The notes below the pieces were generated by a model. The model saw only the letters and a list, made by a program, of their open reading frames with translations. It was not told the DNA's origin and ran no database searches. The position numbers and the translations under genes are program-made. From positions 3,472,001-3,536,000 of the forward strand of contig JAZBRS010000077.1 in NCBI GenBank assembly GCA_037176725.1: a stretch of 64,000 nucleotides of DNA, in the 5' to 3' direction. This DNA is from Posidonia oceanica. Its lineage: Eukaryota > Streptophyta > Magnoliopsida > Alismatales > Posidoniaceae. Below are positions 18,138-58,440 of the stretch, piece after piece. Numbering within the stretch: the first letter of the stretch is position 1; each line of letters begins with the position of its first letter.

Positions 18138-18195
18138 GTTGGATGCCGACCGTTACAGCGTCCAACGTTGGACGCTGGCACACCCAGCGTCCCAC
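18138..18195. repeat. Twin-hairpin module 1 (3' LTR of Element A)
   Basis: Arms are GTTGGATGC, GCGTCCAAC, GTTGGACGC, GCGTCCCAC. Loops are CGACCGTTACA and TGGCACACCCA, both 11 nt. The two middle arms form an 18-bp perfect palindrome. Its LTR partner is at 37441-37498. Confidence 0.9.
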
Positions 18196-18351
18196 GACCC
18201 TCCGAGCAAAGATGCCAAGATCAAAGAATATTCCTCAATAAGTGGCTGATTAATGACCATTAAAACCCATTAAGGGCTTGACCGGTCAAAGGACACTTAA
18301 TGGAGGCAAAGCACAAAATTTGATTTCAGCCAAATATGGCAAGTTTGGGGA

Positions 18352-18356
18352 AACTG
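18352..18356. other. Target site duplication AACTG, left copy
   Basis: AACTG immediately precedes TGTAGTAATC; the second copy is at 24274-24278. The unoccupied 5' LTR has a single AACTG at 37656-37660. Confidence 0.93.
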
Positions 18357-19099
18357 TGTAGTAATCTCGGTGTTCAGATCATCCATGCACACTGCTAGAA
18401 GCTCGCGTGCACCGATCGGAATCAGGCTCACTATATGCGGCTATGTCCAAGGAGGAGGGCCCAACTCGAAAACACTTAAAACAGAGGAGAAAAGATAAGA
18501 AAAGAAGAAGATAAGACAAATCAGAGTCGCCACCGTGTCTATTATCGGGAGACAAGGAAAATCGGGGGAAATACGCGAGTTAACACGCAAAACCAAGCAA
18601 AGGGTGCAATGCAAAGCAATGCGAAGGAAAACAAATGCAAATGAATGCAAATGAGATGACTCATGCCTAGGATAAGGGCAATATGGTCATTACGGGCCAA
18701 AAGACTGGGCAAGGACTCCTGTTACATGCGGGGAAGGTGTTAGGCACCCTCGACACGCCCGAGAATCGGTCTTTCTAGGCTTATACTCGCATACGCGGGG
18801 AAATGCAGGTTTGAATGCCTAAATGCCAATGAATGCCTGAATGAATGCTCAAAGGTGTGCTCTAAGTGGTAGGAGGCAATGCAGGAAAGTAAACGTGCAG
18901 TCTAAGTGCTCAGCAACGCTATCTGTGTTCTGAACCGGTCGAAACCTGGCTCGTGAGAACTCCAAGCAGTAAGCATCACTGCCCTATATGCAAATGCAAG
19001 TGGAAAAGCAAAATGGCGGTAAAACCAAGCAATGCGGGTGACATGCAAGGAAAAACGATGTAAAACACGCGAATTGATGCGAGAAACGAAAGCGGCTCA

Positions 19100-19420
19100 T
19101 GAAACGGTGCAAGAAAACGAGATCGACACGCAAAACGGTGCAAAAGACAGAGCAGCATGCAAAACGGTGTGAAAAAGCAAAGCCAGCATGCAAAACGGTG
19201 CAAAAAATAAGACATGCATGCAAAACGGTGCGAGAAATAAAGCTAGCATGCAAAACGGTGCGAAAAAGCAAAGTGGGTACGCAAAATAGTGCCAAAAAGA
19301 AAGCAGGCACGCAAAACGGTGCCAAAACAGAGCAAGCACGCAAAAGGATGCCAAAAGCAAAGCGGGCACGTAAAACGGTGCCAAAGACAGAGCAGACACG
19401 CAAAACGGTGCCAAAGCAGG
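19100..19420. repeat. About 30-bp minisatellite in the 5.9-kb solo LTR
   Basis: About ten tandem units are centred on GCAAAACGGTGC, followed by an A-rich linker and GCATGC or GCACGC. They are imperfect and vary slightly in length. They produce a repetitive minus-strand frame rich in Cys, Phe and Ala, which I do not regard as a gene. Confidence 0.8.
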
Positions 19421-22400
19421 CGAAATAAAACATTGATAAAGCCATGCAAATGTAGATGCAAAGAGGAAGAGTAAGAGAAGCAACGGGGAGAAAACAACGC
19501 AAGTGTGAGAACGAACGCTGTTTAAGGACCACGTAATGTAGGCATGAAGACCTACAAAGGGGAAGGGAAGCAAGTGGGAGGATTACCACTGTTCTGTGAC
19601 CATTTCCCACCAAAGTGTCCCACGATAAGTCTCGCACACTGCCAAAAGCTCGCGATGCGATCGGATCGTGGAAAAGAGAGAAGAAGGTCGCGATTAGTGG
19701 TGAATCCAGGGGAAATGCGACACAAGGCACTGAGAGTACGCGAAAAGAGAAGACAGAGTTGATAGACAGGAAGAAGGAGTCCTAATCAACATGCTTGAGA
19801 AATCAGAAAGCAAAAACAATGCATGCGATGCAAATGGTATGCAAATGAATGCTGTGCAGGGGTTCAGAAGGACTTACCTTGGGAACCTAAAGCCTGATCT
19901 GAGAATTGCTTGGTCCATGTTGAAGAGCACTCCGCCGGGGTCGTCTAGGTAGCTTAGTTGAGAAGATCCGACAGTCAGATCAAAAGATATCCCAGCTTCA
20001 AAGCAGAGGGGCCAGAACAGGAGAGAAGAATGGATCTAGGTGTACAGGAGGTCCTAAGGGTGTGCAAAACAGGTTCTTCCATGTAAATGGGAGCTAAGTG
20101 TGCTTATGTGTGTGTAGGAATGCCAAATGCAAAGATGCATGAGTGCAATGCATACAAAAATGCAAGAAAGGACCTAAGAATGACATTTCAGAAAACCTGG
20201 GAACTTATGTGCAATTTTTGGAAAAGTGGGACCTAAATGCAAAGATTTTGAAAAAGTAGGGGCTTATATGCAAGATTTTTGAAAACTAGAGGGTTTGAGT
20301 GCAATTTTGCAAAATGCAGGGTTTAAAATGCAATTTTATAAGGTAAATATGCATTAGAGTAAGTTTTGAAATCATGTGGGGGTTTAACATGCAATTTTGA
20401 AACATGCAGGGGTTGAAATGCAATTTTATAAGCAGAAATGTGGTCTTAAATGGTCTGTGAATGCAAATAGAGGGCCTATGTGCAATTTTTAAATATGTAG
20501 GGTCTAAAATGCAATTTTATAAGCAAAAATATGCATTTAAATGAGTTTTATAAACATGTAGAGGACCTATATGTAATTTTGAAATATGCAGGGTCTAAAA
20601 TGCAATTTTATAAGCAAAAATGTGATTTAACATATGCTGTGCATGATATGGAGGACCTATATGCAAAAATTAAAATGCATGGGGGAAATAATGCAATGCA
20701 GTAAGAAAAAAAGAAAAATGAATGCATTGATTAACAGGTCAGAGGACTAAAATGCAAATAGAGAAAAAGACAGGGTTCACAAATGCAATTTACTAAGGTA
20801 AAATTAAAGCATTAAATCAGATTATTAATTAAAGGACTAACATGCAATAATAAAAAGCTGTAGGGCTTGAACTAAAATAAACTTAAAAGAAAAACACAGC
20901 AGAAGGACTAACATGCAATTAGACAGTTTTTTAAGTTTTTCATGCAATTTAATAAGATTTAAATTCAGAATTAAATGAATCATAAACGAAGGCAGGACCA
21001 GAATGCAATAAACTGAAAATAGAAGCTGAGAATGCAATTAATGGCAAAATTTGCATGCTAATGGAAAATAAAGCTACAGTATCATGGGGGAAAACGAGGC
21101 ACTATAGTAGAATGCTACCAGTGCCCGGAGAAGAGGAGGAAGAGTGCTGGAGAGGTGCTGAACCGCTGGGGAGCTTCATGGAGCTTGACGGAGGCCGGAG
21201 CAGCGTCGGCGAGGTGTGACGTTGCCAGGAGACGACCGGAGACGGCGACGGAGCACTACTGAACTGTCTGATGCAGATCGGACGAAAACGGCGACGAGGG
21301 ATCGATCTGAAGGCATGGTCGAGCTCCTGGGGTCCGTGCGAACCTCGGACGACGCTCAGAATGGAGTTCTACAGACCGGAGTGGCGAGTCTGATCCGGAG
21401 CTCACCGGAGAAGAAGATGCAGCGACGGCGTTGACTTCGGGCAGAAGGGAGCAGAAAGCTAGACTAATAGGTGGGGAAGCAAGAAGAGAAGAAAATTAAA
21501 CTAATGGCGTGGAGCAGTACCTGTTTCGACGTCCAGAGAGTTCCCTCGACGCGAGCTGTTTCAGTGGTTGCCGGTGAGGTTGGACCGGGTGCTGTGGACG
21601 TCGGCGGCGGCTCGTGGGCGTTGGGATCCGCTCCTGGAGATCCTCCGATGCTTCCTGAATGGGTGGAATGGGGTTCTGCATACCAGAGGGAGAATCGGCA
21701 GTTTTGGGTTCAGGAGGAGTCGCCTGAGGTGGAGGGAGATGTTCTCTACTCCCCGGATCAGTTGGAAGACGCCGGCGACTTGCTGGAGGTCTGGTGATGG
21801 ATTCTGGATGCTCAGGTTAGGTCGTGGTTAGCTGGAGAAGGAGATGGCAGCTGGGTTGATTTCTGGTTAGGAGAGATCACAGGTGTTTGAAGTGGTGGGT
21901 TTGGTTTGTGGTGAAGGTGAAGGCTAGGGCTTAGGTGGGTTGGAGAGCTGATGTTTCAAGGAGTAGGATGCTGGAGTTTGGGTGGATTTGGGGGTCAATA
22001 GTGTCGAGAATTTTTGAGGAAATGGTGATGGGTTGGTGTGGGTGTTTTCAGGTGGTTCGAGGGCGATTTCAGGGGTGGATTGGCTACGGAACGGAAGGCT
22101 GAAATGCTGGAGGTTTGGTCAAGATTGGGGGGTGAATTGGAGGTGACTTGCTGGGTGCTGGGGGTCTGGTTTCAGATGGAAAAGAAGAGGAAGAAGAGGG
22201 CTGAATTGGCTGAGGGAGAAGGAGAGGGATTCGGTGCTCTTTGCTGCTCTGGATGCTCTCTTTCTCTCGGACGGCAAAAGGCGATCCAGGAGGAGAAGGC
22301 TGGAGGCTTTATCAGGGGCTAAAGAGGAGTGAAGCGCGGGCTGTGGATTTGAATCCACCGACGCGGGCTGCAGCTGCTGGCAGAGGGAGGACGACGGAGG

Positions 22401-22429
22401 CGACGGGCATTAATGCCCCCCCGGAGATC

Positions 22430-23890
22430 CCGCAGAGAGCTGAGAGAGAAGAAGATGAGCTGGAGGCTGAGGTGATCGGGAGAGAAGAAGAAATCAAATT
22501 CAAAGAGGAGAGGAAGAGAGCTGGCGGGAAGAAGAAGGAGAACTGAGGAAGAAGAAGAAGGAGGGAGGAAGGAGGAGGCTGCGAGCGTGCGGGCCGGGCC
22601 TGGTGCGCGAAAAAGGAAATAAAAGAAAGGAAGAAAAGAAAGAAGGGGAAGAGGAACGGGCCGGACTGGGCCAGAGAAAAAAAGAAAGGAAAATAAAAAG
22701 AAAGGAAGAAAGGGAGAAAGAGAAGAGAAGAAGGGGAAGAAGAGGGAAATAAAAATAAAAATAAATAAAAATAGAGAAAGGATGGGAAAAGTTTTTAGGA
22801 TAGTTGTGTTTTAAGTTAGGACTTTGATTAAGTTTTTTAATGATTGTTTTTTATTAGTTAATTAGGATTGAAGAGTTTTAGTTTTGATTAGGGTTTTTAG
22901 GGTTTTCTTTTCTTTAAATTGTTTTTGATTTTGTTTAAATGTTTGTTAAGTTTTTTAAATTGTTTTTTAATTATGTTTTTTTGTTAAGTATTTAGGATGT
23001 TAATTAGGATTTTTTTGAAGTTTGTTTTTAAATTAATTAGGGTGAGTTTTAGATTTTTGATTTTAATCTTTTTCCTCAAGTCTTCTTTGATTTGTTTTTT
23101 AATTTTGTTTGTTAAGTTCTTTTAATATTTTTTTTTTAGTTAAGTTTTCTTGTTAAGTTTTTAATTAAATGCTTTTGGATTTCTGGTTGTTTGTTTTTTC
23201 TTTTTAATTAGGTTTTCAAATTGTTTCTTTTTAGGATTGTTAAGTTAATTTTTTTTTCTTCTTAATTACTTGCCTTAGCATTTTTTAATTGTTTTCTTTC
23301 CTTTTAAGATTTGTTTTTGGTTGTTTTTTAGTAGGGTTTTTACGTTTGCTTCTTTTGGTTACATTTTGGTTTTTTTCTTGATTTTACAGCATTTTCTTTT
23401 TGTTTGTTTTGCATTTTTTAAGTTGCATTCTTAGTTTTTAGTTTTAGTTAAGTTTAGTTAGGCTTTTGTTTTTAATTGTTTGTTTAATGTTTTTAATTAT
23501 TTCTTTTGGGATTTTAATTTGTTTTAGAGTTTTGAAGGTTTTTAAGGGTTTTTTAGGGATTTAGTAGAAGGAAGGAAAAGAAAAGAAAAAGGAAAAGGAA
23601 AAGGAAGGAGAAAAGGGAGAAATGGAGGAGTAAAGAAGAAAGAGAGGAGTTGAAAGAAAACAATTTTTAGAAAATCAAAGAAAATGCTAAAAATAAGATA
23701 AAAATACAAATAAGATTTAGAAGAGATAGATGCACAAGGGGGGCCCACAGCCAAGCAAGAAGAAGGGAGAGAAGGGGGTGAAAAGTTGGAGGATAATCAG
23801 GAGAGAGAGAGAGAGAGAGAAGAGAGAAAAGAATAATCTAGGAGAGAGAAAAGGATAATTTGATGAAATGAAGGGGTTAGGGGTTTAGAA
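22430..23890. repeat. Alternating purine-rich and T-rich low-complexity tracts
   Basis: About 22430-22780 is almost pure A/G (GAAGAAGAAG, AAAGAAAGGA). About 22800-23540 is T-rich, with repeated TTAAGTTTTT and TTAGGGTTTT words. About 23560-23890 is purine-rich again, including a GAGA run near 23805. No coding potential is seen. Such homopurine blocks are common in long LTRs and can form triplex DNA. Confidence 0.75.
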
Positions 23891-24273
23891 AAGAGATGAA
23901 AATTGGGGAGTGTGTGGCCTAGGGTCTCTAGTGTTGGACCTAGGGTTTGGGTTTGGTTTTGGGAAAGTTTTGGAAGGGTTTTGAGGTGTAGAAAAAGGGT
24001 AGTTTTACCTAGGTTTTCTAGGATTTTTTGGGAGTGGTTTTGGTTTGAAAATTTGAGGGTTCTTGGGTAGGTTTGCTAAGTTGGGAATGGTGAGTTTTCC
24101 TATGGTTTTTGGGTAGGTTTTGGGCTTGGGAAAGAGGTGTAATTCTAGGTTAAGTTTGGGCTTGTTTTGGAAAGAAGGATGAAAAGGAATGTGTAGGTTT
24201 GGACCTAGATTTGGATCCAGAAGTCACCACAGGTTTCCAATTGATTCAAGCCTGTCAAAATGGGGTGTCAACA

Positions 24274-24278
24274 AACTG
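24274..24278. other. Target site duplication AACTG, right copy
   Basis: AACTG follows the TGTCAACA end of the solo LTR and matches 18352-18356. Confidence 0.93.
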
Positions 24279-24289
24279 AAAACCAGGTT

Positions 24290-24347
24290 GTTGGACGCTC
24301 TGATTCACAGCGTCCAACGTTGGACGCTAGACGAGCCAGTGTCCAAC
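24290..24347. repeat. Twin-hairpin module 2 (3' LTR of Element A)
   Basis: Arms are GTTGGACGC, GCGTCCAAC, GTTGGACGC, GTGTCCAAC. Loops are TCTGATTCACA and TAGACGAGCCA. The partner in the 5' LTR (37672-37700) has lost exactly one 29-bp hairpin. Confidence 0.92.
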
Positions 24348-24367
24348 ACACTCAAATGGAACTTGTT

Positions 24368-24425
24368 GTTCGACGCTATGACACACAGCGTCCAACGTTG
24401 GACGCTAGACCAGCCAGCGTCCAAC
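24368..24425. repeat. Twin-hairpin module 3 (3' LTR of Element A)
   Basis: Arms are GTTCGACGC, GCGTCCAAC, GTTGGACGC, GCGTCCAAC. Loops are TATGACACACA and TAGACCAGCCA. The LTR partner is 37721-37778. Confidence 0.92.
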
Positions 24426-24584
24426 ACACTCAAATGGAAACTTGCCAATTTTGGCCTCTCGACCACATGGACAGGTGTCAATAAGTTTGATTAGAGTACT
24501 TGAGCTGGAAAAAGAGCTTCTAGAGGTAGCCTAATGTAACAGACTACACTACCATGAAGGGAGTGCCAAAATGGAGTATCTATA

Positions 24585-24602
24585 GATTGCCCCTCCTTGA
24601 AG
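24585..24602 (-). other. Polypurine tract of Element A
   Basis: The minus strand reads CTTCAAGGAGGGGCAATC directly before the 3' LTR start. Position and composition match the primer for plus-strand DNA synthesis and confirm the minus orientation. Confidence 0.75.
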
Positions 24603-24734
24603 ATAGCTTCGGCACGAAGCTATCTACAATGCGAGACGATACCCCCGTGTGGCGCTACCTGGAGATCCTAAATGAAATCCAATGCCTGCTGCCACTAGGC
24701 TTGGACGGGACACAAAGAGGGTCGGCTAAAGAAA

Positions 24735-24935
24735 CATGGCCAAGGGGATTGCCCAAGGGGAACAAACTAACGACATGCCGCGGGGATGGCCCGCGGGGGT
24801 CAAACTAAAGACACTGCCACGGGGGTTGTCTGTGAGGTCAAACTTAAAAGACATGCCACGAGGATTGCCCGCGGAGGTCAAACTAAAAGACATGCCACGG
24901 GGATTGCCCGCGGGGGTCAAACTAACAGGATGGAT
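24735..24935. repeat. 39-bp minisatellite in the 3' UTR of Element A
   Basis: About five tandem units of 39 bp are built on ACATGCCACGGGGATTGCC followed by a CGCGGGGGTCAAACTAAAAG-like part. A related GGGGATTGCCCAAGGGG phrase recurs near 26255 and 26835-26890, so the unit once covered more of this region. Confidence 0.8.
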
Positions 24936-25554
24936 AGCTAATGATTTCGACGACCACTCAATGTGAATGCAATACAATGCGAATGCAATACAATGCGCTA
25001 TGCATGGATGCGTGCTGACGGGAATGCAAAAAGGGGTCATGATATGCAATGCATGACCCTAGGTAATGAGGTTCCTCCATCATCGCCGGCTTTAATTTGT
25101 ATACTGGGTTGGCTCAGGAATTTTTCTCACCACCCAAGGCGGACTGACACATGCATGAATGCAATTTGTCATGATCAGGTGCCCTTTCCTCGAGTGTAGC
25201 CTAGACTCTCCCAGGGGACCGTCGTCTCATGATACGTGGGTTGGTGAGCGAGAGGTCCATGATGCTCCCAGGCAAAAGGGGAAATGATCTCTTTTCTGCC
25301 AACCACGTTGGCTCTATTCGTCACAATTAGGTGTCATTTCATTGAATATTGCCTACATTCTCAACAGAGACCGTCATCTCATGACCCGAAATCAATGAAC
25401 AATGAGTCCATCGATACCGTTGACGTTATTCGTTAGAATCAAGTGTCCCTTCATTGAATGTTGCCTACATTCTCGGTGGGGACCATCATCTTCTGACCCG
25501 GGAGTTAGTGAACAGTGGGTTTGCTAATACCGTTGGCTTTGCTTTGTTGACCCG

Positions 25555-26235
25555 ATTATACTCTAGGGATCTTTCTACTGATTGGTTTGCTTTGTTTGTC
25601 CGGTTGTGCTCCAGGGTACCTGCTTTTGATTGGTTTGCTTTGTTTGTCCGGTTGTGCTCTGGGGTTTGCTTTATTTATCCGGTTATGCTCCGAGGATTGC
25701 TTTATTTGTCCGATTGTGCTCCGGGGCTTACTTTGTTTGTCCGATTGTGCTCCGGGGCTTGCTTTGTTTGTCCGGTTGTGCCCTGAGGCTTGCTTTGTTT
25801 GTCCGGTTGTGCTCCGGGGATTGCTTTGTTTGTCCGGTTGTGCTTCGGGGTACCTGCTTTTGATTGGTTTGCTTTGTTTATCCGGTTATGCTCCGGGGAT
25901 TGCTTTATTTGTCCGATTGTGCTCCGGGGCTTACTTTGTTTGTCCGGTTGTGCTCCGGGGCTTGCTTTGTTTGTCTGGTTGTGCTCCGGGGCTTGCTTTG
26001 TTTGTCCGATTGTGCTCCGGGGCTTACTTTGTTTGTCCGGTTGTGCTCCGGGGCTTGCTTTGTTTGTCCGGTTGTGCTCCGGGGCTTGCTTTGTTTGTCC
26101 AGTTGTGCTCCGGGGCTTGCTTTGTTTGTCCGATTGTGCTCCGGGGTACCTACTTTTGATTGGTTTGCTTTGTATGTCCGGTTGTGCTCCGGGGATCTTT
26201 GCTTTGGTGTCTCGGTTATGCTCTGGGGTACCTTT
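25555..26235. repeat. 31-bp minisatellite in the 3' UTR of Element A
   Basis: About 20 tandem units of 31 bp are near TTGCTTTGTTTGTCCGGTTG followed by TGCTCCGGGGC. An alternative segment containing ACCTGCTTTTGATTGG interrupts the run at about 25617, 25852 and 26147. No stop codon occurs in several plus-strand frames, which gives artificial Leu/Cys-rich frames. I do not call a gene. Confidence 0.9.
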
Positions 26236-26284
26236 GCAAACTTGCTAAGGGGATTGCCCAAGGGGAAAACAAAACATTTAAAAG

Positions 26285-26755
26285 ACTTGAGCTAGATCAA
26301 ACATCCAACACTCAGAGAAAATGAGCTGGATCAGACATCCAACACTCAAGAATTGAGCTGGATCTATCCAACACTCAAGGATTGAGCTGGATTATCCAAC
26401 ACTTAAGGATTGAGCTGGATTTATCCAACGCTCAAGGTTTGAGCTGGATTATCCAACACTCAAGGATTGAGCTGGATTATCCAACACTCAAGGATTGAGC
26501 TGGATTTATCCAACACTCAAGGATTGAGCTGGATTATCCAACACTCAAGGATTGAACTGGATTTATCCAACACTCAAGGATTGAGCTGGATTATCTAACA
26601 CTCAAGGATTGAGCTGGATTTATCCAACACTCAAGGTTTGAGTTGGATTTGTCCAACACTCAAGGATTGAGCTGGATTTATCCAACACTCAAGGTTTGAG
26701 CTGGATTTATCCAACACTTAAGGTTTGAGCTGGATTTAACCAACACTCAAGGATT
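26285..26755. repeat. 28-29-bp hairpin minisatellite in the 3' UTR of Element A
   Basis: About 16 units are near GGATTGAGCTGGATTATCC followed by AACACTCAA. Each unit is an imperfect inverted repeat, TTGAG-c-TGGAT then ATCCA-aca-CTCAA. One-base length variants (TTATCC or TTTATCC) alternate. Confidence 0.88.
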
Positions 26756-27065
26756 TACCTTTAGGCGTTGGCCAAAGGACTGGAACTAAAATCTAAAAGA
26801 CTCGCTAAGGAAAAACTGAGACAAAACACGCCGAGGGGGTTGCCCAAGGGGAAACTAAGATAAAACACACCTAGGGGGTTGCCCAAGGAAACAAAAGGAT
26901 ACTTCTTTGGCTTCGCTTTGTTGACCCGGTGGTGCTCCGAGATCTTCGAAAATCATGACGGTCTCATCTCCCTGTGCATTCTAGCTTGTAGAAACCTCTA
27001 GTATTGGAAGAAAATTGATTTGGAAGCTTTCTGGCAAAATTCAGCATTTTAAGCTGTTCTAAAGT

Positions 27066-27123
27066 ATTGGACGCTAAATACTTCTGCGTCCAACATATGA
27101 CGCTAGAACGGGTTGCATCCAAC
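27066..27123. repeat. Twin-hairpin module 4
   Basis: Arms are ATTGGACGC, GCGTCCAAC, ATATGACGC, GCATCCAAC. Loops are TAAATACTTCT and TAGAACGGGTT, both 11 nt. Confidence 0.85.
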
Positions 27124-27143
27124 GTCTAACCGTCACCTTGGGT

Positions 27144-27201
27144 GTAGGACGCTGCTCCTTACTGCGTCCAATGTATGACGCAAAGGAGGATAGTGTCCAA
27201 C
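27144..27201. repeat. Twin-hairpin module 5
   Basis: Arms are GTAGGACGC, GCGTCCAAT, GTATGACGC, GTGTCCAAC. Loops are TGCTCCTTACT and AAAGGAGGATA. It lies 20 bp after module 4, just downstream (in element sense) of the antisense PMD remnant. Confidence 0.85.
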
Positions 27202-27530
27202 GCGTTAGGGTCTTTAACAGACCTCTCCGCCTTTCTTCCCCATTTTCCCGCTCACCACTTCCCTTCCTCTTCTTCTCCAGCGACGGCGACGACTCCTTCT
27301 AAACTTCCGAGTTTCTTCTGGCGTAGGGCAACTCGGACGTTGGGCGGCTTGGACGGCTGGAGCTAGGGCACGGTGGCAGCGGCAGTGCAGATTCTGGCAA
27401 CCAGAACTGCGGCTTCCAGTTCCGATGAGCCTACTTTCTTCCCCTCTTCTCCTCCTCTTCATCATTCCAGATAGTATTTTGACCTCTATTGGGTCTTTTC
27501 CAGTTTATACCGAGATTTGGTAAAGCCTAC

Positions 27531-30500
27531 ATGAGGCCCAAGAAGTTGGCACGGAGAGGGGATGCCCCATCGACGTCCGGCGAGTCTGGGCTGGCTCCGG
27601 TGAGGGTGCCGGAGGCAGTCGGGATGACGGAGGAGGTGCCGACAGTGGGTACGATGGAGGAGGCAACAGTTGAGATGCCGGAGGAGGTAGTGGCACCAGT
27701 AGATATGTCCGAGGCGGCGGCACCAGCGGACGTACCTGAGGCGACGACCAGTGTCATGGAGGCTGAGGAGATGGTGGCACCGGTAGACGTGCTCGAGGCG
27801 GCAGCCTGTGCTGTGGAGACTGAGGTGACGAGCGTCGAGGAGACCGAGGCGTCGAGCCCCTTTGGTGGCTCGGAGGATTCCGATTCTTCAGCCACTCTCG
27901 GCGAGGATTCGGAGGAGTCGGGGTCGGAGGAGGAGGTTCCCGAGGCGGTCCCCGCTGCTGCTGCCGGGATGGCTGAGGATGATGGCTGGTACGTGAGCAT
28001 CCAGGACTTTGTTCGGCGGGAGGAAGAGGGCGACGCTGGTGCTCCTCCAGACTTCACGCGGGCTCATATACCCCACGACGAGGTACAGGCTTCGGCACCA
28101 CGCAAGGATGCGGCCCAGGCCGAGTTTGCAGTAGCTGCACTGGCGGCTAGGGGACAGGTAATCACATTTCCATTCAATTTCAAATATTATTTTTGTGCAC
28201 TTTGTCTGACAATTCTTTTCTTTCTTGCAGAGTCGGGCCCCCGCCGTCGTGCACTGTCACTGGGGTCAGGTCCTCAGGTGCTAGTAGATGTTGGAGCCTT
28301 TCCAGCACGAGTGGCTTCGGTAGATGGGGTTTGGACACTTCCTGTCCATTCCTCTCTTCCAGCTTGAGTTGGGGCTTCTGGAGTCTGCAGCAGAGCGCTA
28401 CCACCCTCACACTAGCTCTTTTGTGACCCAGGTTGGTGAGTTTGTTCTTTCGCTGGAGGACATGGCCCGACTGACTGGCCTTCGAGTGACGGGACGCCCG
28501 GTGACTGGCCCAGTACACTCCGACTACACCTCTATGATGGCGAAGTTGGTGGGGAGACGAGTCGTCATGTACGGCCCGGCCTTTTTGTTACTACCTCGGC
28601 GGTTCAACGCGTCGAGGACTCCCAAGAGACAGCGACGGAGCCTAGGGAGGATGCCGATCAGTAGCTCTGCGCCTTCCTTCTAGTTCTGTTTGGGGACCTG
28701 CTATTCAGCCACGCTACTTCGCGGGTTTCAGCGGTGTTCCTACCCCTGCTTGCCAACTTAGATCAAGTAGGGGAGTATGCTTGGGGAGTTGCGAGCCTAT
28801 CATTCTTGTACACTGTGCTCTTCAAGTTCTCCGATGGTAGTTCCCGTCAGCTTGGCGGGAACCTGCCATTCTTTCAGGTATATAAACTTTATTTGCTTAT
28901 TTAAGCTTCAAATATTATTTACTCTGCATACTCGACTGATGATTTGCTTTCTTTTTACTTGCAGATGTGGGTATGGGACCACTTTACTTTCATGAGGCCC
29001 ATCCCACCTTCGGTTCTTGAGGCTGGGATCCCCTTCCCGCGTGGACTGCACTGGGGTCTGGCTGCTCATGCACCTGAGGCGGTTACTGGCCACCGCTACG
29101 TCGGGCGTCTTTTCTTTGAGATGCTGGTTCCTGCCCAGGTAATATGCCCCTACTGATATATTATTTTTCATTTGGGTTTACTGATTCACTGCATGCTTTT
29201 CAGGTGACTTGGCGTCCTTACGCCAAGGGGGAGCACGAGGATGTCCCTGAGATAGCTCGGGACCGGACAGTTTTTGACCGGGACATCTGGCTCCACTGCT
29301 GGAACCACTGCCACTTCCAGCAGATCAGCCAAGCACTTAGGCAGTTGGGGCGCCGGCAGATTCAACCTCAGGCCCACTCGTTCCGAGTTTGGCACGAGGT
29401 ACGAGGGGGAGGTGGACGTGCTCGCCACTGGGTTGACATCTACGGTCCACAGTTGCTGGACTGGGTTCGAGGCGGTTCCACCACTCTTGTTGACGCGACC
29501 GCTGAGGACGAGCTGACTTGGGCCAGGTGGATGGATGACCGGTTTAGCGAGCTCATGGTCTTCCATTGCTCTCATTTTATGGGGCAGTCGAACCTTCCCA
29601 TGGGTGACACCTCTCCAGATGTGGCAACGATGGCTGTGGGCGAGCTACAGGAGTCCGTCTGCTCTCACAGGATTCAGATGGAGATAGCGGTGAGCATTTA
29701 GCTTTATGTTTGTATTGCCTGTATTTCTTGACAGCTAACTTGCTTGGACCTTGCCCCTTGTAGTTGAGGACTACTGACGAGTATAGTCAGCACGAGCGCG
29801 ACCTGGTTAGGCACGTTGCTGAGCTAACCGAGGAGGTTGAGCGTCTGCAAGCCTCTGCTTCTCAAGTTTGCATTTATTTTTATAGCATAGTTGCCTACCT
29901 TGAAAATTGTGCTAAGTACGCCTTCTTTGCTTTTGCAGCCTTCGGCTAGTTTTGCCCCTCCACCGGGTCATGCCAAGGAGATTTCCCACCTTCAGAGTAT
30001 GGTAAGTAGCAGTATACTTTCCCTTTATATTTCTTGATTCAGTTCTGACTATGGCTTCGGCTTTTGCAGATTGACGATCTTCAGAAGGAGCTGTCTTTTC
30101 GAGCCAGTGACCAGGCTTCCCAGCTTGCTCTTCGGGATGCGCGAGTTCAGGAGCTAGAGCGGCAGGTACAGACTGCTGTTAGTGACCTAGGCTCTGCTCG
30201 TCAGCTTGCTGAGGAGAAGGCTACTGAGCTTGCCCAGCATGCTATACAGCAACAACCTCCACCAGCGACTGATTCAGCTGCAGAGATTGCCGAGTTGAGG
30301 AAGCGGTTGGAGGCAGTTGAGACGATACGACTGGCCTTGCTCTAATTTTGTTCTTTTGTTCTTGTTTGACATTTTGATTGTCCTTTCTACAGAGTCTGGT
30401 TGGTAATGCAGGCGTTGTTGCACAGCTCGAGGGTGAGGTGAGTCATTATCGGAGGCATGCTTTCGAGAATGCTGTCATTGCAGGACGGTCAGTTCCTCCT

Positions 30501-30638
30501 CGGTCGATGCTTGAGCCGAGCCACCATTCTGGTAGCCGTCGCTCTCGAGCTACCTCTAGGGCTCCTTCTGGTGCTTCCATTCGTCAGTCACCTCGGCCTC
30601 CTACAGCTCCCGAGGGCGAGGGGGAGAGTGCCTTATAG
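27531..30638 (+). pseudogene. Plant-mobile-domain and coiled-coil extra gene of Element A, eight exons, broken
   Basis: Runs antisense to Element A. Likely exons: 27531-28157, 28231-28877, 28965-29138, 29204-29689, 29764-29865, 29939-30001, 30070-30324, 30393-30638, mostly with GT-AG introns of 65-90 bp. Exon 1 (start MRPKKLARRG) encodes an acidic Glu/Val/Ala-rich region. Exons 2-4 resemble the plant mobile domain (aminotransferase-like family): GFGHFLSIPLFQLELGLLES, then LPLLANLDQVGEYAWG, then VTWRPY. Exons 5-7 encode a coiled coil, and exon 8 a Ser/Arg/Pro-rich tail. Breaks: in-frame TAG at 28282, 28285 and 28321, a frameshift near 28570-28600, a TAG at 28662 in the restored frame, and a donor changed from GT to AT at 30325. 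Tat elements are known to carry antisense extra genes here. Function is unknown. It could be a captured cellular gene, but its place inside the LTRs argues for an element gene. Confidence 0.75.
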
Positions 30639-31175
30639 TTGCTGCTTTTCTTTTCTTTTTTTTTCTTTTTTTACTTGACAGCACTTGTACTTCAGGGGTA
30701 TGCCTTGGTGACTTTGTAGAAGAACTCAAATTTATAGATGATAAAGATTTTCTACACACTTAGCAAACTTGTCAAATGCTTCTTTTTTCCTTTACCTTTC
30801 TCTAAGTTGAAAATGAACTAAGATAACCAATAGTCAGGGAAGCACCTCCAACTAATGGCTTTTAATTCAATTTAACTTGAAACAAGCTTAATTACGTGTA
30901 ATAATATGCAAATGATAGAGTTATGAAGAAAAATTTCACCTGCGAGCTTTAATTCTGAATTCCGCGGCCGTTGGCGCTTTAATAAGTTAATAACTTAATG
31001 TAAACAATAACAAGTGATTCTAGATGGCTGGAAGGTTCAAAAAATATGAAACCAACTCCCACACGTGTATTTCAACTTGTAGAAGCCTCTGGAACTGGTA
31101 GAAATTGGTTTGGCAACTTGTCCGCGGATTTGGAGGGCCATGAGCGAAGTTCAGCAACTTAAGTTGCTGAAAAAC

Positions 31176-31232
31176 GTTGGACGCAACTGCAACTACGTCT
31201 AACATAGGACGCTAGCATAGATAGCGTCCAAC
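31176..31232. repeat. Twin-hairpin module 6 (57 bp)
   Basis: Arms are GTTGGACGC, ACGTCTAAC, ATAGGACGC, GCGTCCAAC. Loops are AACTGCAACT (10 nt, one short) and TAGCATAGATA (11 nt). Confidence 0.85.
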
Positions 31233-31265
31233 AACTCTTTTTATTATTTTTTCTTTTTTTGCTGC

Positions 31266-31323
31266 GTTGAACACCAGAACAGGTGGCGTCCAATATATGA
31301 CGCAAAAATTTGTGGCGTCCAAC
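31266..31323. repeat. Twin-hairpin module 7
   Basis: Arms are GTTGAACAC (decayed), GCGTCCAAT, ATATGACGC, GCGTCCAAC. Loops are CAGAACAGGTG and AAAAATTTGTG. Its first loop resembles that of module 8, so the two look like a local duplication at about 90 bp. Confidence 0.8.
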
Positions 31324-31356
31324 ATCTCTTATTTATTTTTTCTTTTATTTTGCTGC

Positions 31357-31414
31357 GTTGAATGCCAGAAGAGGTGGCGTCCAATGTATGACGCAAGAGA
31401 CGGCTGCATCCAAC
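31357..31414. repeat. Twin-hairpin module 8
   Basis: Arms are GTTGAATGC, GCGTCCAAT, GTATGACGC, GCATCCAAC. Loops are CAGAAGAGGTG and AAGAGACGGCT. Confidence 0.8.
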
Positions 31415-33073: not shown

Positions 33074-34645
33074 TTAGTGGTGCTTCTGAGCCCTCTCTAT
33101 CAGTACATCCCAATTGAAGACGTCTGCATCCACCAGGTCATAAGCGATGTCTGCATCCACCAGGTCATAGACGACGTCTTTAAAGACCCAGCAGTCTTCT
33201 AAATTGTGCCCACGTCTCCTGTGGTACTGGCAATATTTGCTCCTGTCGTAGTTTGTCTCTTCAGGTCTTCGAGGCGGGAGGTCGATTGCTCGGGCCTCTA
33301 TCATTTCTGCAAACATGTCCATCAGCATGACCGGGATAGGAGGATAGCTTGTGCGCTTTGGTCTCTTGGACTGTTGTTGTGGAGCTGCATGATGATAGTT
33401 GCCCCTGGTGTTGCCTTCTTTTCCAGAGCGGCTGCCATTCTACCGGTAATCTTGAAGAGGAAAATCTTACTGCTTCGCAACTTGAAGAATGGACTCAATA
33501 TCATCCTCTATTTTCTAAAATTCATGCATATTTTCTTTTACAGAAGTAGCTACCTCATAGAGTGCAGTTACAGAAGGGCAATAAGCATTTGCCAACCCCC
33601 TTTTCATTGGACCAATAGCATTTGCAATTAATGTCTGGATAACTTGTCTTTCTGGGATGTCCAGGCCTGATTTGGTAGCCATTTCCCACCATCTATTTGC
33701 AAAAGTGACCCATTCTTTGCCTGGCATCATGGTCTCCCTGCTCAAGTTATGAAAGGTCGACTTTGACTCGATCTTGTGTTGATATTTGGTCAAGAAGCAC
33801 TCCTTGATCTTGTTGAAGCTGCTGAGGTCTTCTCCAGAGAGGGTAAGGATCCATTCCATGGGTTCGCCTTCCAATGAATAGAAGAAAAGGTGAATGATGA
33901 AGCCCAAGTCATGAAAGTACGGAGCCGACTCCATTTGAAACCGGATGATGTAGGTTTGTGGGTTGGTAGTCCCATCAAACTTTGGCGTTTTTGAATACTT
34001 GAAGCCAGGAGGAAGCTGAAATGGTGGGAATTTGCCCATGTCAAAAGTTGGGGGAGCTTGTGTTTGAACCCCTAAGGAATTTAAGACCTTCCTCATTTCT
34101 GCTAAATTGCTGAGCCTGCCATGAATTTGCGCATTTGCTACTTGATTGGCATGCGGCTGTTGATTGTCTCCTTGTATATTCATACCAGGCTGAAGAGGAA
34201 CCTGGTAATTCTCCTCTGGCTGGTTGAAGAATAATGGATCGGCTTCCTTGCCAAGTGGCTGCTGCTGTGGCTGCTCAACGAACAAAGGATTTGACCTTGT
34301 TCGGAATCCTCTTAGTGAGTCGTTTTCCTGCCCCTTATGTTGGGTATCCGACGGTGCAATTCCATGTTGTCTTTGGCACAAATTTTTAGGGACGTGGCCC
34401 GTAGCAGTCCTTCGTAATCTTTTACCAGGGAGGTGTTGACCTTGATGGAGATCCTCATCTCTTTGATTTGACGAACCAGGATGATAGTTGTCACTGTAAA
34501 GGAAGCGACACAGTACTTGATATTGGGCCAAGTCGGGATCTAGTTCTTTTCCAGTGGTTGGATCGAATAACCTCATGATGGGTTCCTCCTCGGGCATGTT
34601 ATCTGTATTTGTGTAGCTACTTTCGGATTCAGACATTTGGCTCAT
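33074..34645 (-). pseudogene. gag: gag pseudogene of Element A (Tat/Ogre-type Gag)
   Basis: One frame runs about 524 codons from an ATG at 34645 (MSQMSESESS) to 33074. Gag forms the virus-like particle and binds element RNA. The capsid region (about residues 240-375) carries KYSKTPKFDGTTNPQTYIIR, the segment with LFFYSLEGEPMEWI, and FANRWWEMATKSG, as in Ty3/gypsy retrotransposon gag domains. Near the C-terminus is a zinc-finger-like KYCQYHRRRGHNLEDCWVFK (C-x2-H, then GH-x4-C), typical of Tat/Ogre Gag. A short duplication, YDLVDADIAYDLVDAD, follows. The frame has three stops: TAG at 33517-33515, TAA at 33469-33467 and TAG at 33442-33440. Protease does not follow. The frame upstream of 34645 is open but runs through a twin-hairpin module, so I chose the internal ATG. 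Confidence 0.85.
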
Positions 34646-34682: not shown

Positions 34683-34740
34683 GTAGGACGCAGACAACCG
34701 CAACGTCCAATGTATGACGCAAGATACAGTAGCGTCCAAC
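34683..34740. repeat. Twin-hairpin module 9
   Basis: Arms are GTAGGACGC, ACGTCCAAT, GTATGACGC, GCGTCCAAC. Loops are AGACAACCGCA and AAGATACAGTA. It is the module closest to the gag start codon. Confidence 0.88.
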
Positions 34741-34902: not shown

Positions 34903-34960
34903 GTAGGATGCTGGAGCAGATAGCGTCCTATGTTGGACGCTTATCACAGAAGCGTCCAAC
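34903..34960. repeat. Twin-hairpin module 10
   Basis: Arms are GTAGGATGC, GCGTCCTAT, GTTGGACGC, GCGTCCAAC. Loops are TGGAGCAGATA and TTATCACAGAA. In the first hairpin GTAGGA faces TCCTAt, a change on both sides relative to GTTGGA/TCCAAC. Confidence 0.9.
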
Positions 34961-35350: not shown

Positions 35351-35408
35351 GTTGGACGCGCATAGTTTCTACGTCCAACGTAGGACGCAGGTAGTTGTAG
35401 CGTCCAAC
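35351..35408. repeat. Twin-hairpin module 11
   Basis: Arms are GTTGGACGC, ACGTCCAAC, GTAGGACGC, GCGTCCAAC. Loops are GCATAGTTTCT and AGGTAGTTGTA. Confidence 0.9.
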
Positions 35409-36121: not shown

Positions 36122-36179
36122 GTAAGACGCAAACAATGGTAGCGTCTTATGTAAGACACAACAAAGAGCAGCGTCCAAC
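36122..36179. repeat. Twin-hairpin module 12, with compensating arm changes
   Basis: Arms are GTAAGACGC, GCGTCTTAT, GTAAGACAC, GCGTCCAAC. Loops are AAACAATGGTA and AACAAAGAGCA. In the first hairpin both sides changed (GTAAGA against TCTTAt), so pairing is kept at eight of nine positions although the sequence departs from GTTGGACGC. Confidence 0.88.
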
Positions 36180-36364: not shown

Positions 36365-36422
36365 GTAAGACACTGGAATAGGCTGCGTCCTATGTTGGAC
36401 GCCGCCCAGCATAGCTTTCAAC
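36365..36422. repeat. Twin-hairpin module 13
   Basis: Arms are GTAAGACAC, GCGTCCTAT, GTTGGACGC, GCTTTCAAC. Loops are TGGAATAGGCT and CGCCCAGCATA. It is the module nearest the primer-binding site. Confidence 0.85.
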
Positions 36423-36655: not shown

Positions 36656-37380
36656 TCAGTGGATATGGGATTTTTTGGTTAGGAGGAGCTTGTTGTGTCT
36701 ATTTAGTGCTTCCTCGTTGCCCCTTTTTTGTATCCAACTCCGTCACTCCACAGGTGACAAAATTGGTGTGATCGTCACTCTCGGTTCACTTTCACCGGCC
36801 CTCGAGACGCCTTGGGGAGATGTGATGTGATTGTGGGTTCAACTACCTTGGGACAACGCCAGCGTTGCCCAAGGGTGCCCGTACTTGATGTGTTCCTTCT
36901 TCTTCTTCTTGTCCTTGCAAAACAGATTTTAAAGATACGGATTAACAAAGTGTAGTATATAATTCAAAACAAATTGAAAATGAACATAAAATGAAAGGAG
37001 GAGTACTTACCCGAGGGGTTTTATCCCCCCGGTTGCAACTAAGTATGACTATGCCTATCTACAACAATATATGAAATGAAATGCTTCACTATACTACGAA
37101 ATTAAGCATATGATGTGAAAAGAAAAGGAAAACTAAAGAAAGCCCCCTTTTGTCTATGCAAGGAATGCAAGTGGGGTCGATGTCGTGCCACTGATGACAG
37201 AGGAATCAAGCTCCCACAAAACTCTTTCTCCACCTCTTTTCTCAAGATTTGAGCTCAAAACACTTTCTACTTGCTCTCACTACTTCTTCTCAAAATTGTG
37301 TTTCTCTCTTGAAAATCACTTCTAAATCCCTCCCAGATCTCTCCAATTTCCGTACTCGATCCTAGTGGGGGTACCCCTGC

Positions 37381-37387
37381 TTTTATA
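37381..37387 (-). promoter_or_regulatory. TATA box of Element A 5' LTR
   Basis: Minus-strand TATAAAA lies inside a CCCCTGC/GCAGGGG inverted repeat, as in the 3' LTR. Transcription would start about 30 bp to the left and run leftward into gag. Confidence 0.6.
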
Positions 37388-37440
37388 GAAGCAGGGGAGG
37401 AATAAAAAGGCCAAGTCAGCAACTTTCCTGATTCAGAAGT

Positions 37441-37498
37441 GTTGGATGCCGACCGTTACAGCGTCCAACGTTGGACGCTGGCACACCCAGCGTCCCAC
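37441..37498. repeat. Twin-hairpin module 14 (5' LTR copy of module 1)
   Basis: Identical in arms and loops to module 1 at 18138-18195, as expected for LTR copies. Confidence 0.9.
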
Positions 37499-37671
37499 GA
37501 CCCTCCGAGGCAAAGATGCCAAGATCAAAGAATATTCCTCAATAAGTGGCTGATTAATGACCATTAAAACCCATTAAGGGCTTGACCGGTCAAAGGACAC
37601 TTAATGGAGGCAAAGCACAAAATTTGATTTCAGCCAAATATGGCAAGTTTGGGGAAACTGAAAACTAGGTT

Positions 37672-37700
37672 GTTGGACGCTCTGATTCACAGCATCCAAC
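37672..37700. repeat. Single hairpin, module 2 minus one 29-bp unit
   Basis: Arms are GTTGGACGC and GCATCCAAC with loop TCTGATTCACA. The other LTR has a complete 58-bp twin module at this place (24290-24347). The missing segment is exactly one arm-loop-arm unit of 29 bp. Confidence 0.92.
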
Positions 37701-37720
37701 ACACTCAAATGGAACTTGTT

Positions 37721-37778
37721 GTTGGACGCTATGACACACAGCATCCAACGTTGGATGCTAGACCAGCCAACGTCCAAC
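37721..37778. repeat. Twin-hairpin module 15 (5' LTR copy of module 3)
   Basis: Arms are GTTGGACGC, GCATCCAAC, GTTGGATGC, ACGTCCAAC. Loops are TATGACACACA and TAGACCAGCCA, both identical to module 3, while several arm bases differ. Confidence 0.92.
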
Positions 37779-37937
37779 ACACTCAAATGGAAACTTGCCA
37801 ATTTTGGCCTCTCGACCACAGGGACAGGTGTCAATAACTTTGATGAGAGTACTTGAGCTGGAAAAAGAGCTTCTAAAGGTGGCCTAATGCAACAGACTAC
37901 ACTACCATGAAGGGAGTGCCAAAATGGGGTATCTACA

Positions 37938-51573: not shown

Positions 51574-51574
51574 A

Positions 51575-55478: not shown

Positions 55479-56314
55479 TGTAGTAATCCTGAAATACGGA
55501 TCGTCCATGCACGATGCCAAAGCTCGCGTGCACCGATCGGAAATAGGTTCACTATATGCGGTTGGATCCAAGGAAGGAAACTCTACTCAGAAACGCTGGC
55601 AAAAGAGGAAAAAGAATGATAAGACAAATCAAAGTCGCCACCGTGTCTATTAAATTGGGAGACAAGGAAAACCAGGGAAATGCATGGAAACCATGCGAAA
55701 AGATGCAAAAAGGGATGCGATGCTATGCAATGCAATGCTATGCTATGCTATGACTCGTGCCTAGGATGAGGGCATAATGGTCATTACGGGCCAAGAGAAA
55801 GGGCAAGGACTTCTGTTATGCACGGGGAAGGTGTTAGGCACCCTCGATACGTCCGAGAATCGGTCTTTCTTAGGCTATTCTTGCTCGCATATGCAGGAAT
55901 TTCAGCAAGGATTGCCTTTAACTGTACGCCCGAGAGCGATAGATGCTATGCATGCCTAATGCTTTAAATGTCTAAATGCCTGAATGCTATGCATGGGAAA
56001 TTAAACGTGCAGCCTATGTACTCAGCAGCGCTGCTAGTGTTCCGAACGGGCAAGCCCTGGTTCGTAAGAACTCCTAGGCAGTAAACATCATCACCCTAAA
56101 TGCAAATGCAAGCGATAAAACAAAACAGCGATGAAAACCTTGCAATGCGAAGCGACGCGCAAAGGAAAGCAAGTCCAAGGCGGGGCGTAAAGCCAAAAAC
56201 GAGGGTCCGACAACATGCATGGGTGTCAAGGTATGCATCGGAGGTGATAAAATGTAGAAAGTGACAAGCGAAACCAAATCGGCGCTTTAAAACAAAGTTC
56301 AACCAACTGCAAGT

Positions 56315-56372
56315 GTTGGACGTAGCAATGACATGCGTCCAATGTTGGACGCAGGGACAGAGGGCGTCCAAC
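56315..56372. repeat. Twin-hairpin module 16
   Basis: Arms are GTTGGACGT, GCGTCCAAT, GTTGGACGC, GCGTCCAAC. Loops are AGCAATGACAT and AGGGACAGAGG. Confidence 0.9.
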
Positions 56373-56562
56373 ACTTACTGGAGGCAAACAGCACAGAATA
56401 CATGCAATTTTGGAAATCGATGCGTTCTAGATGCATGAATGCTATGCAAGTGCAACATGGCAATGGCAGATATGCAAATCATGCTAGGCAAGCAAGATAA
56501 ATAATCAGAAAAGGTTTAGGAGCAAGAGGCAAGCATAAACAGGACTTAAAATGCTGCAGAGT

Positions 56563-56620
56563 GTTGGATGCTAGTACACTCAGCGTCCAACATAGGACGC
56601 CAGAGCATTCTGTGTCCAAC
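56563..56620. repeat. Twin-hairpin module 17
   Basis: Arms are GTTGGATGC, GCGTCCAAC, ATAGGACGC, GTGTCCAAC. Loops are TAGTACACTCA and CAGAGCATTCT. Confidence 0.9.
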
Positions 56621-56772
56621 ACTTAGCCAACTGAAACATGCAAACTGCAACATGCAAGATGGTAAAAATGCGATGCAAACCTACAAGCAACTGAAATAAA
56701 ACCCATGGAATAGCATGCACACACATGGGCTAGCCAAACATCCCTAAATAATGCAAGCAGATGAACTGGGGA

Positions 56773-56830
56773 GTAAGACGCGAGCTCCAGTAGCATCCAA
56801 CATAGGACGTTGGGAACTCTAGCGTCCTAC
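56773..56830. repeat. Twin-hairpin module 18
   Basis: Arms are GTAAGACGC, GCATCCAAC, ATAGGACGT, GCGTCCTAC. Loops are GAGCTCCAGTA and TGGGAACTCTA. In the second hairpin TAGGAC faces GTCCTA, a paired change from TTGGAC/GTCCAA. Confidence 0.88.
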
Positions 56831-57012
56831 ACCCAGGTTCATCAAACTGAGCCAAGGAAATGAGAAACAGACCCAGATCAAAGCAAGATTAAAGGCATAG
56901 CATGTGAATAACATAAATGGAAGCATGCAAGATGATCCACGCAGATATAGCATTCAAACTAGAAAAGTAAAGCATCATGCAAACATCAAAGCAAAGGCTG
57001 CCATGCATATGG

Positions 57013-57070
57013 ATAGGATGCGGCTACCAACTGCATTCAACATTGAACGCAGCTAACAACAGCATCCAAC
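57013..57070. repeat. Twin-hairpin module 19
   Basis: Arms are ATAGGATGC, GCATTCAAC, ATTGAACGC, GCATCCAAC. Loops are GGCTACCAACT and AGCTAACAACA. In the first hairpin GATGC faces GCAT-, keeping those pairs. Confidence 0.85.
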
Positions 57071-57244
57071 ACAGGCAAGAGGCAGGCACGCCAAACTGCA
57101 GAAAGAACTAGCCCAAAAAACCACTTAAGCATACATACAAGCTACTGAAACTAGGCTAAACCAAGGCATGTATACATGGATCAAGTAAGCATCTTAAATA
57201 CATGTAATATTTGAGCATTTAAACAGGTGCAAGCAAGCAGAAGC

Positions 57245-57302
57245 ATAGGACGCTGGATACACCAGCGTCCAACGTAGGACGCGATGCATTCCAGTGTCCT
57301 AC
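57245..57302. repeat. Twin-hairpin module 20
   Basis: Arms are ATAGGACGC, GCGTCCAAC, GTAGGACGC, GTGTCCTAC. Loops are TGGATACACCA and GATGCATTCCA. The second hairpin pairs GTAGGAC with GTCCTAC. Confidence 0.9.
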
Positions 57303-57494
57303 ACAGGGAAGCAGCAAGGCAAAACATATGCATGCAACAATGGATCCAAACTAAGATCAAAGCCCTATATTAGACATGGCATGGCACCTAGGGGCATGCA
57401 AGAAAGCTAGTGACAATAATCCACAGATAAAAACATTTAGACTACAGCAATATAGGAGCAAAGCAAGAAAATAAACAAGCTGGCATGCAGGGGT

Positions 57495-57551
57495 GTTGGA
57501 CGCCACTTCATGGCGCATCCAACATTGGACGCACCAGGCAGTGCGTCCAAC
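57495..57551. repeat. Twin-hairpin module 21 (57 bp)
   Basis: Arms are GTTGGACGC, GCATCCAAC, ATTGGACGC, GCGTCCAAC. Loops are CACTTCATGGC (11 nt) and ACCAGGCAGT (10 nt). Confidence 0.9.
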
Positions 57552-58382
57552 AGGTCGGGAAGGTTCCCGGCCAAGATTGGTGGCCAAGGCGGCCAAAAAT
57601 CGCCAACCAACTTGCTAGGAAGCAAGAGGGAGTGACGACGAGCATGTCCATATGCTTGGCGCCAGAAATGGGTGGGTGGATTGCTCCACCCACCCCCTCC
57701 TCCTCGTGGCCGACGGCCGAGGCTTTTCCAACCAACTAAGGAGGCGTGTGTGCATGCAAGCCAGTCTAACATACTACTACGTGTACAAGCTAGCTAGGGG
57801 TGAAGAAAAATGCACCTGAACACGGCCGGAAAGCGCTGTTTGCAGTCGACCGGTCGGCGCAGAAGGAGGCGGCAGTGGCTACTCCGGTGAGCTCCTGGGA
57901 CGCAAGGGAGGCACGGGAGAGGTTGCTGGAAGCTTGGGTGCACTTGTGGTAGCTCACTCAAGGTTCGGGAGGCTGCAAATTTTCTTGCAAGTGCGTGTGG
58001 TGAGCTGCAAAAGGCAGTGAAGTTCTGGTTTTGTTGGGTTTGGGTGGAAAGATGGCAGCGGCGTTGCAGAGGTGGCAGAGGCGTTGGCAGGTCATGGTGT
58101 GAGTGGAGAGGCCACTAGGCATGTCAGGGGAGTTAGTGCGGCTTGTCCGGAGGCGGGCAAAGTCGCGGTGGTGGCAGGAAGCAAGCGGCGGTGGCAGTGG
58201 GTGCCGTGAGAGCGGAAGACCCGCCAGCAGAGGAATGGACGCTGTGGTAGGGAGTTACTTGGCTTGGCGGCTAGCGAGTGGCTGTAGTGAGGTGAGGGGA
58301 TGGTTAGTAAGTGCGGCATGGGCGGTGGGACGGACAGAGGTGGTGAGCCAGAGGTGGCAGTGGCCGCTGCAACTCCCGACTT

Positions 58383-58440
58383 GTTGGACGCTGGCACAAG
58401 GCACGTCCAACGTTGGACGCTGCTCATGCCTGCGTCCAAC
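58383..58440. repeat. Twin-hairpin module 22
   Basis: Arms are GTTGGACGC, ACGTCCAAC, GTTGGACGC, GCGTCCAAC. Loops are TGGCACAAGGC and TGCTCATGCCT. It lies near the element-sense start of the LTR, as modules 1-3 do in Element A's LTR. Confidence 0.92.

Follow-up and report, generated by a model that had tools for sequence, protein, structure and literature searches.

The window, a stretch of 64,000 nucleotides of the Posidonia oceanica genome (contig JAZBRS010000077.1), contains a 58-bp palindromic module that is repeated in two LTR families. Judged by its sequence, this module is fairly likely to be a composite cis-regulatory box recognised as double-stranded DNA, and as such a predicted docking site for a sequence-specific protein. 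All statistics given below refer to this one window, with two LTR families and approximately 20 non-identical modules.

Anatomy of the module

Each module is built of a half-site, 11 bp, a full palindrome, another 11 bp and a half-site, and carries four half-sites with the consensus RTWGGACGC. Of 23 positions read directly, 22 carry a full module and one (37672) a half module. A covariance model of a 62-bp unit, made with 21 modules as input and applied to the entire window without filters, recovered 22 modules on the plus strand with E values of 2.5e-15 or better (21 of them by construction) and the half copy with an E value of 2e-6; no further match in the whole window was better than E 0.67. 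Both approaches confirmed the count made in a preliminary description of this DNA. The near-constant 9-11-9-9-11-9 geometry reported there, with two 10-nt exceptions, was also recovered: 42 of the 44 spacers are 11 nt long, and the two of 10 nt belong to modules 31176 and 57495.

With at most one mismatch, 28 left-type and 38 right-type arms were found in the window, against 1–8 and 5–12 in five dinucleotide shuffles; for exact arms the counts were 15 and 17, against 0–1 in five shuffles. Among the distances below 48 bp from the start of a left arm to that of a right arm (n = 23), 22 were 20 bp and one was 19 bp. Inverted repeats outside the modules (9-nt arms, at most one mismatch; 24300–37900 and 55479–58629) showed no preference for an 11-nt gap (5/85).

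The LTR copies 37441 and 37721 and the half copy were left out of the arm, spacer-alignment, loop, identity and flank-repeat counts. Loop tests were additionally done without modules 24290 and 31266, which are duplicates, and without the two 10-nt loops, and modules 31176 and 57495 were dropped whole from the identity/Mantel and spacer-pairing tests. The covariation shuffle test used 21 modules (without 37441 and the half copy), while the folding and pairing-probability predictions used all 22.

Identity across 16 modules was 81% in the arms, 32% in the spacers and 28% in the flanks. The T at position 2 and the A at position 6 of the half-site were invariant in 80 of 80 arms (20 modules). CpG letters were changed to TpG or CpA in 33 of 200 cases and otherwise in one, against changes in 51 of the 520 other arm letters, and part of the arm variation is therefore CpG decay. 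A constant spacer length (42/44) despite drifting letters is what spaced DNA half-sites typically show, which argues for recognition of the module as DNA.

Distribution in Element A and LTR B

The first family is represented by Element A, which lies on the minus strand at approximately 17355–37937 inside a 79-bp satellite, with the target-site duplication ACCGT at both ends. The satellite array that hosts it is long (1–17348 and 37939–48637, array rows from 2315). The second family is represented by a solo LTR, LTR B, in the same orientation as Element A according to its end sequences. The features of both are collected in Table 1.

Table 1. Features of Element A and LTR B in the window. All modules, including the half module, were read directly and recovered by the covariance model.
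Feature	Positions	Strand	Remarks
Element A 3' LTR, first piece (TATA side, R-U5)	17355..18356	-	blastn 99.4%, 17356-18356 vs 36659-37660
Module, U3 of 3' LTR	18138..18195		
Nested 5.9-kb solo LTR	18357-24273		splits 3' LTR; duplication AACTG
Element A 3' LTR, second piece (U3 start)	24274..24582	-	blastn to 37655-37935
Module, U3	24290..24347		
Module, U3	24368..24425		78-bp tandem duplicate of 24290
Module	27066..27123		upstream of antisense PMD gene region
Module	27144..27201		upstream of antisense PMD gene region
Antisense plant-mobile-domain (PMD) gene region, putative	27489..30638	+	PF10536
Module	31176..31232		downstream of gag (-) and PMD region (+); first spacer 10 nt
Module	31266..31323		downstream of gag
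Module	31357..31414		downstream of gag; 91-bp tandem duplicate of 31266
gag region, from presumed ATG 34645	33074..34645	-	open stretches 33515-34801, 33074-33439
Module, leader	34683..34740		ends ~37 nt upstream of presumed gag ATG
Module, leader	34903..34960		
Module, leader	35351..35408		
Module, leader	36122..36179		
Module, leader	36365..36422		
Element A 5' LTR	36659..37937	-	TATA box near 37387 on - strand
Module, U3	37441..37498		ends ~53 bp upstream of TATA box
Half module	37672..37700		
Module, U3	37721..37778		
Solo LTR B	55479..58630	- (from end sequences)	imperfect 5-bp duplication GTTAT/GTTAC
Module, LTR B	56315..56372		
Module, LTR B	56563..56620		
Module, LTR B	56773..56830		
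Module, LTR B	57013..57070		
Module, LTR B	57245..57302		
Module, LTR B	57495..57551		second spacer 10 nt
Module, LTR B	58383..58440		nearest U3 end

With both LTRs included, Element A carries 15 full modules plus a half module. Ten of the 15 are located between the LTRs, within the genomic transcript (five in the leader, three after gag and two before the PMD region). None of the 15 falls in an assumed coding stretch (rough P 0.007, LTR copies not being independent). The modules were found in the places claimed for them earlier, among them the LTRs, the leader and solo LTR B, and outside the presumed coding stretches of gag and PMD. Avoidance of the assumed coding stretches in Element A favours a control box, as does the position of modules upstream of the TATA box (~53 bp), the presumed gag ATG (~37 nt) and the PMD region. 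The ten modules inside the genomic transcript weaken it, since a promoter box is not needed there.

The Pfam scans of Element A covered selected open stretches. Both open stretches of the gag region share a common frame with stops between them, and as the frame stays open upstream through module 34683, a start of gag further upstream is possible. The sole Pfam match of this region, Retrotrans_gag (PF03732), was sub-threshold (17 bits, cut-off 24.1); no copia gag model of Pfam was matched, and a zinc-knuckle-like stretch seen by eye matches no Pfam family. PF10536 was detected in the open stretches 28324–28683 and 28665–28904 (E 1.7e-12 and 1.8e-11), and a third stretch of the PMD region, 29120–29701, scored below the curated cut-off; the first long frame of the region begins at 27489. 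Protein searches returned one relative of gag and seven of a PMD stretch, all of them ENA records from short contigs. Like Element A, Ogre elements are LTR retrotransposons with the plant mobile domain in an extra ORF, in 57% of them according to an excerpt of PMC6317226, which makes an Ogre-like affiliation of Element A likely. Element A belongs probably to a PMD-bearing gypsy-type lineage.

Differences between the LTRs of Element A are unevenly distributed: 13 of 281 positions differ between 24273–24582 and 37655–37935, against 5 of 995 elsewhere (Fisher P 6.6e-6). This points to gene conversion or exchange affecting this stretch after insertion. The 3' region of Element A also contains a 31-bp tandem array (25635–26146). 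A further tandem array, at 26288–26755, has a unit of 28–29 bp (ATCCAACACTCAAGGATTGAGCTGGAT) that also forms an imperfect palindrome. The CCAACACTCAA within this unit is similar to the arm plus flank of the LTR modules, and parts of the array obtained weak scores with the module model (6.7–8 bits, E 0.67–1.7). Near the window end, a 40/79-bp tandem array was observed at 62251–63259.

LTR B contains seven modules. No TATAWAW was found in it on either strand, which weakens the reading of the modules as control boxes. Six of its modules (56315–57495) follow each other at near-regular distances of 210–250 bp without an obvious repeat unit, and the covariance model revealed no additional degenerate modules filling these gaps. 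Compared with each other as possible decayed tandem repeats, the inter-module stretches gave P < 0.05 in 4 of 10 pairs (mononucleotide shuffles, uncorrected), perhaps reflecting shared composition. LTR B (55479–56149) and the solo LTR nested in Element A (18357–19036) are 72% identical over approximately 700 bp in their 3' portion, and the U3 portion is not common to both. The modules occur in LTR B alone, all outside the shared portion; the covariance model found no module in the nested 5.9-kb LTR, from which the modules had indeed been described as absent.

Spacer drift, duplication and mobility

Pairwise, the spacers are near random, as was claimed before with the statement that the loops share almost nothing. 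This does not hold for the loops as a set, which display a weak but significant pattern. The positional information of 34 loops amounted to 3.0 bits, against 1.04 ± 0.17 in within-loop shuffles, none of 2000 reaching that value. A purine is present at position 2 in 32 of 34 loops, a pyrimidine at position 10 in 29 and A or T at position 11 in 30. Loops of LTR B scored above background under the profile of the Element A loops (P 0.0002), and those of Element A did so under the LTR B profile (0/5000 draws as high). The weak symmetric edges of the spacers look as if the half-site ran on into the spacer, and together with the profiles that carry across both families they favour recognition as DNA. 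A mild asymmetry was observed in loop orientation, 28 of 34 loops scoring better in forward direction (leave-one-out) and 9 of 13 and 14 of 21 across families. It weakens the case for a DNA site, as a symmetric one would not need it.

The LTR copies of Element A differ in none of 55 compared spacer letters. Module 18138 is identical to its LTR counterpart 37441; the other LTR stretch has 13 substitutions, none of them in the 33 comparable spacer letters and four or five in arms, depending on the alignment of a 29-bp gap. The loops are thus not hypermutable: they have drifted slowly, over the long term, while arms and spacing were conserved.

Two neighbouring pairs of modules, 24290/24368 and 31266/31357, are tandem duplicates of 78 and 91 bp with alignable loops. 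Simple copying therefore does happen and preserves the loops at first, as the preliminary description expected of copying. The same description named alignable loops or chance spacing as evidence against its reading: the loops of some copies can be aligned, and the spacing is far from chance. The half copy 37672, compared with 24290, corresponds to a 29-bp loss between direct arm repeats. Arm likeness as a predictor of loop likeness, expected from recent common copying, was rejected (r -0.13, Mantel P 0.90, 16 modules).

The module had been proposed to be an autonomous small structural unit. A unit of fixed geometry outside the coding parts of the elements is supported; autonomous mobility was not borne out, as target-site duplications were not found. 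That a small mobile unit, such as a mini transposon or mobile double hairpin, inserted into these elements is highly improbable, even though the flanks of the modules are unlike (28% identity), two LTR families carry the module and the related nested LTR does not. A copied unit would bring its loops along, and those copies with common loops are tandem duplicates lying next to each other. In 20 modules, the flanks contained no perfect direct repeat of 4, 5, 6, 8 or 9 bp at offsets 0 or 2; over 14 tests of flanking repeats the lowest P values were 0.044 and 0.052, uncorrected. Viral and prokaryotic contigs, each searched with one exact pattern, gave no hit; as non-plant collections they provide weak evidence. 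Double-hairpin elements of fungal mitochondria are tandem hairpin pairs in non-coding organellar DNA and are thought to be mobile. The modules resemble them in having two tandem hairpins scattered in non-coding DNA, and differ in that no sign of mobility was detected here.

RNA hairpin or DNA site

The arms can pair with each other, with standard pairs in 86.2% of the cells against 20–45% when slid by 1–3 columns, although the structure was derived from the same consensus. An RNA structural element, acting through hairpins of the genomic RNA as a packaging, dimerisation or translation signal, was considered. Packaging signals usually lie in the leader close to gag, where modules cluster. Compensatory changes occur at the third pair of each helix (3/21 and 2/21), and the mild orientation bias of the loops is also in line with an RNA element. 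Arm complementarity, however, did not exceed that obtained after exchanging partners among modules (four pairings in 20 modules, Watson-Crick P 0.13–0.82), and this speaks for a DNA site. Covariation remained within the range of shuffles, the score being reached in 81 of 500 and the percentage of pairs in 41 of 500. The low power of this test, which had about 20 sequences sharing one consensus, and the compensations at position 3 weaken the argument for a DNA site. The invariant T2 and A6 speak against an RNA stem, since a stem would tolerate swapped pairs, and favour a DNA site for the same reason. Finally, a hairpin does not need loops of exactly 11 nt, and no Rfam family was found at gathering score in 17300–60000.

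Folding predictions were made for both strands. On the minus strand, taken as the transcribed one, the twin fold was preferred in none of 22 modules with 80-nt flanks, in two with 30-nt flanks and in seven without flanks, the corresponding numbers for outer-arm pairing being 13, 16 and 14. On the plus strand, the twin fold was favoured in 5, 7 and 8 of 22 modules with 80, 30 and 0 nt of flanks, and the five modules that prefer it with 80-nt flanks weaken the DNA interpretation. Mean twin pairing probabilities were above those of random positions on both strands. Taken together, an RNA structural element is unlikely, and the proposed packaging or dimerisation signal found no backing either in covariation above control or in the fold favoured on the strand taken as transcribed.

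Two further structures were rejected. An outer stem or three-way junction, suggested by GT...AC flanks, was discarded with flank complementarity at the level of chance (lowest P 0.126), and a rod fold with paired spacers showed no excess pairing.

Comparison with known systems

By analogy, the closest known system is that of the repeated-motif (RM) boxes of Sireviruses, which are a similar kind of thing. In an excerpt of PMC2829016, these boxes are described as repeated palindromes upstream of the LTR TATA box and of the ENV gene; they are simple palindromes of 10–20 bp in Ty1/copia elements, have a CGG-CCG core in 12 of 13 tabulated motifs and define CpG islands. The modules share with them the palindromic nature, at least eight copies per element (here 15 full and one half in Element A; the seven of LTR B are counted apart, as its element is not present in the window) and, in the LTRs of Element A, the location upstream of the TATA box near 37387. 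Modules 27066 and 27144 are located upstream of the PMD region instead of ENV. This similar layout favours a role as control box. In contrast to the RM boxes described there, the half-site consensus GTTGGACGC contains neither CGG nor CCG, the module combines four half-sites and fixed 11-bp spacers in one 58-bp composite, and boxes are also present in the leader. Sireviruses are Ty1/copia elements, whereas the only gag match in Element A is the sub-threshold Retrotrans_gag. The CpG trait, measured in LTR B in 250-bp steps, is mixed: four modules lie at CpG ratios of 0.26–0.43, one at 0.82 (GC 0.45), and modules 57495 and 58383 at 0.65–0.71 (GC 0.60–0.61). The module was thus not classed as a Sirevirus RM box, given its different core and composite geometry, a probably different element lineage and the mixed CpG trait.

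Analogous palindrome clusters in the LTRs of maize Sireviruses attract small RNAs in excess (Bousios 2016, according to an excerpt of PMC10760457). The palindromes of the module could accordingly act mainly in host silencing, giving rise to small RNAs or being targeted by them, and the CpG decay (33/200) is consistent with methylation. Such a role would be a cost to the element and leaves the conserved half-sites and spacing unexplained. Stems of 9 bp are, moreover, short for Dicer-like enzymes, and this explanation is quite improbable.

VANDAL elements are Mutator-like DNA transposons. Their arrays of VANC-binding motifs consist of YAGTATTAY in the same orientation, and VANC is a shown anti-silencing protein (PMC5735166, excerpt). 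As in these arrays, the motifs described here are concentrated in non-coding parts and have gained copies by tandem duplication (two module pairs). They differ by being palindromic and of another sequence, YAGTATTAY being absent from Element A and LTR B, and a comparable role of the PMD protein is hypothetical. A DNA motif has also been linked to plant mobile domain proteins in the case of the DOWN motif of MAIN/MAIL1-dependent genes (PMC7156037 and PMC9899485, excerpts), and here too a candidate DNA motif is found alongside a plant mobile domain protein gene. The MORC1 copy of the DOWN motif (CATGCAGTTT), the single copy compared, was rejected as a candidate, being absent from both strands of Element A and LTR B. 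Literature searches with four arm strings gave no title on plant transposons among the matches listed, and those on palindromes in LTR, gypsy, Ogre or PMD elements gave no title describing the module among the matches listed.

Proposed function and significance

As a control box recognised as DNA, the module would offer four half-sites, probably bound by two dimers or a tetramer of one protein, which may be made by the host or by the element. Arrays of boxes in the U3 promoter, in the leader and around the antisense PMD gene would switch on or de-repress transcription of the element. Selection would keep half-sites and spacing while the spacers drift, and copies would be gained by local tandem duplication and lost via slippage between arms. 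It is conceivable, but rather unlikely, that a tetramer of the PMD protein of the element, or of another protein from this LTR lineage, occupies the boxes and relieves silencing or activates the LTR, the leader and its own promoter. If true, this would represent a retrotransposon counterpart of the VANC system and would give a function to retrotransposon-borne PMD genes.

If the interpretation as a control box is right, arrays of palindromic control boxes extend beyond Sireviruses and would have arisen also in a lineage that bears PMD genes and is probably of gypsy type, where the composite grammar is stricter. The module would then serve as a defined DNA probe to find the protein by which these retrotransposon promoters are recognised, and the role of the PMD genes of such elements could be addressed.
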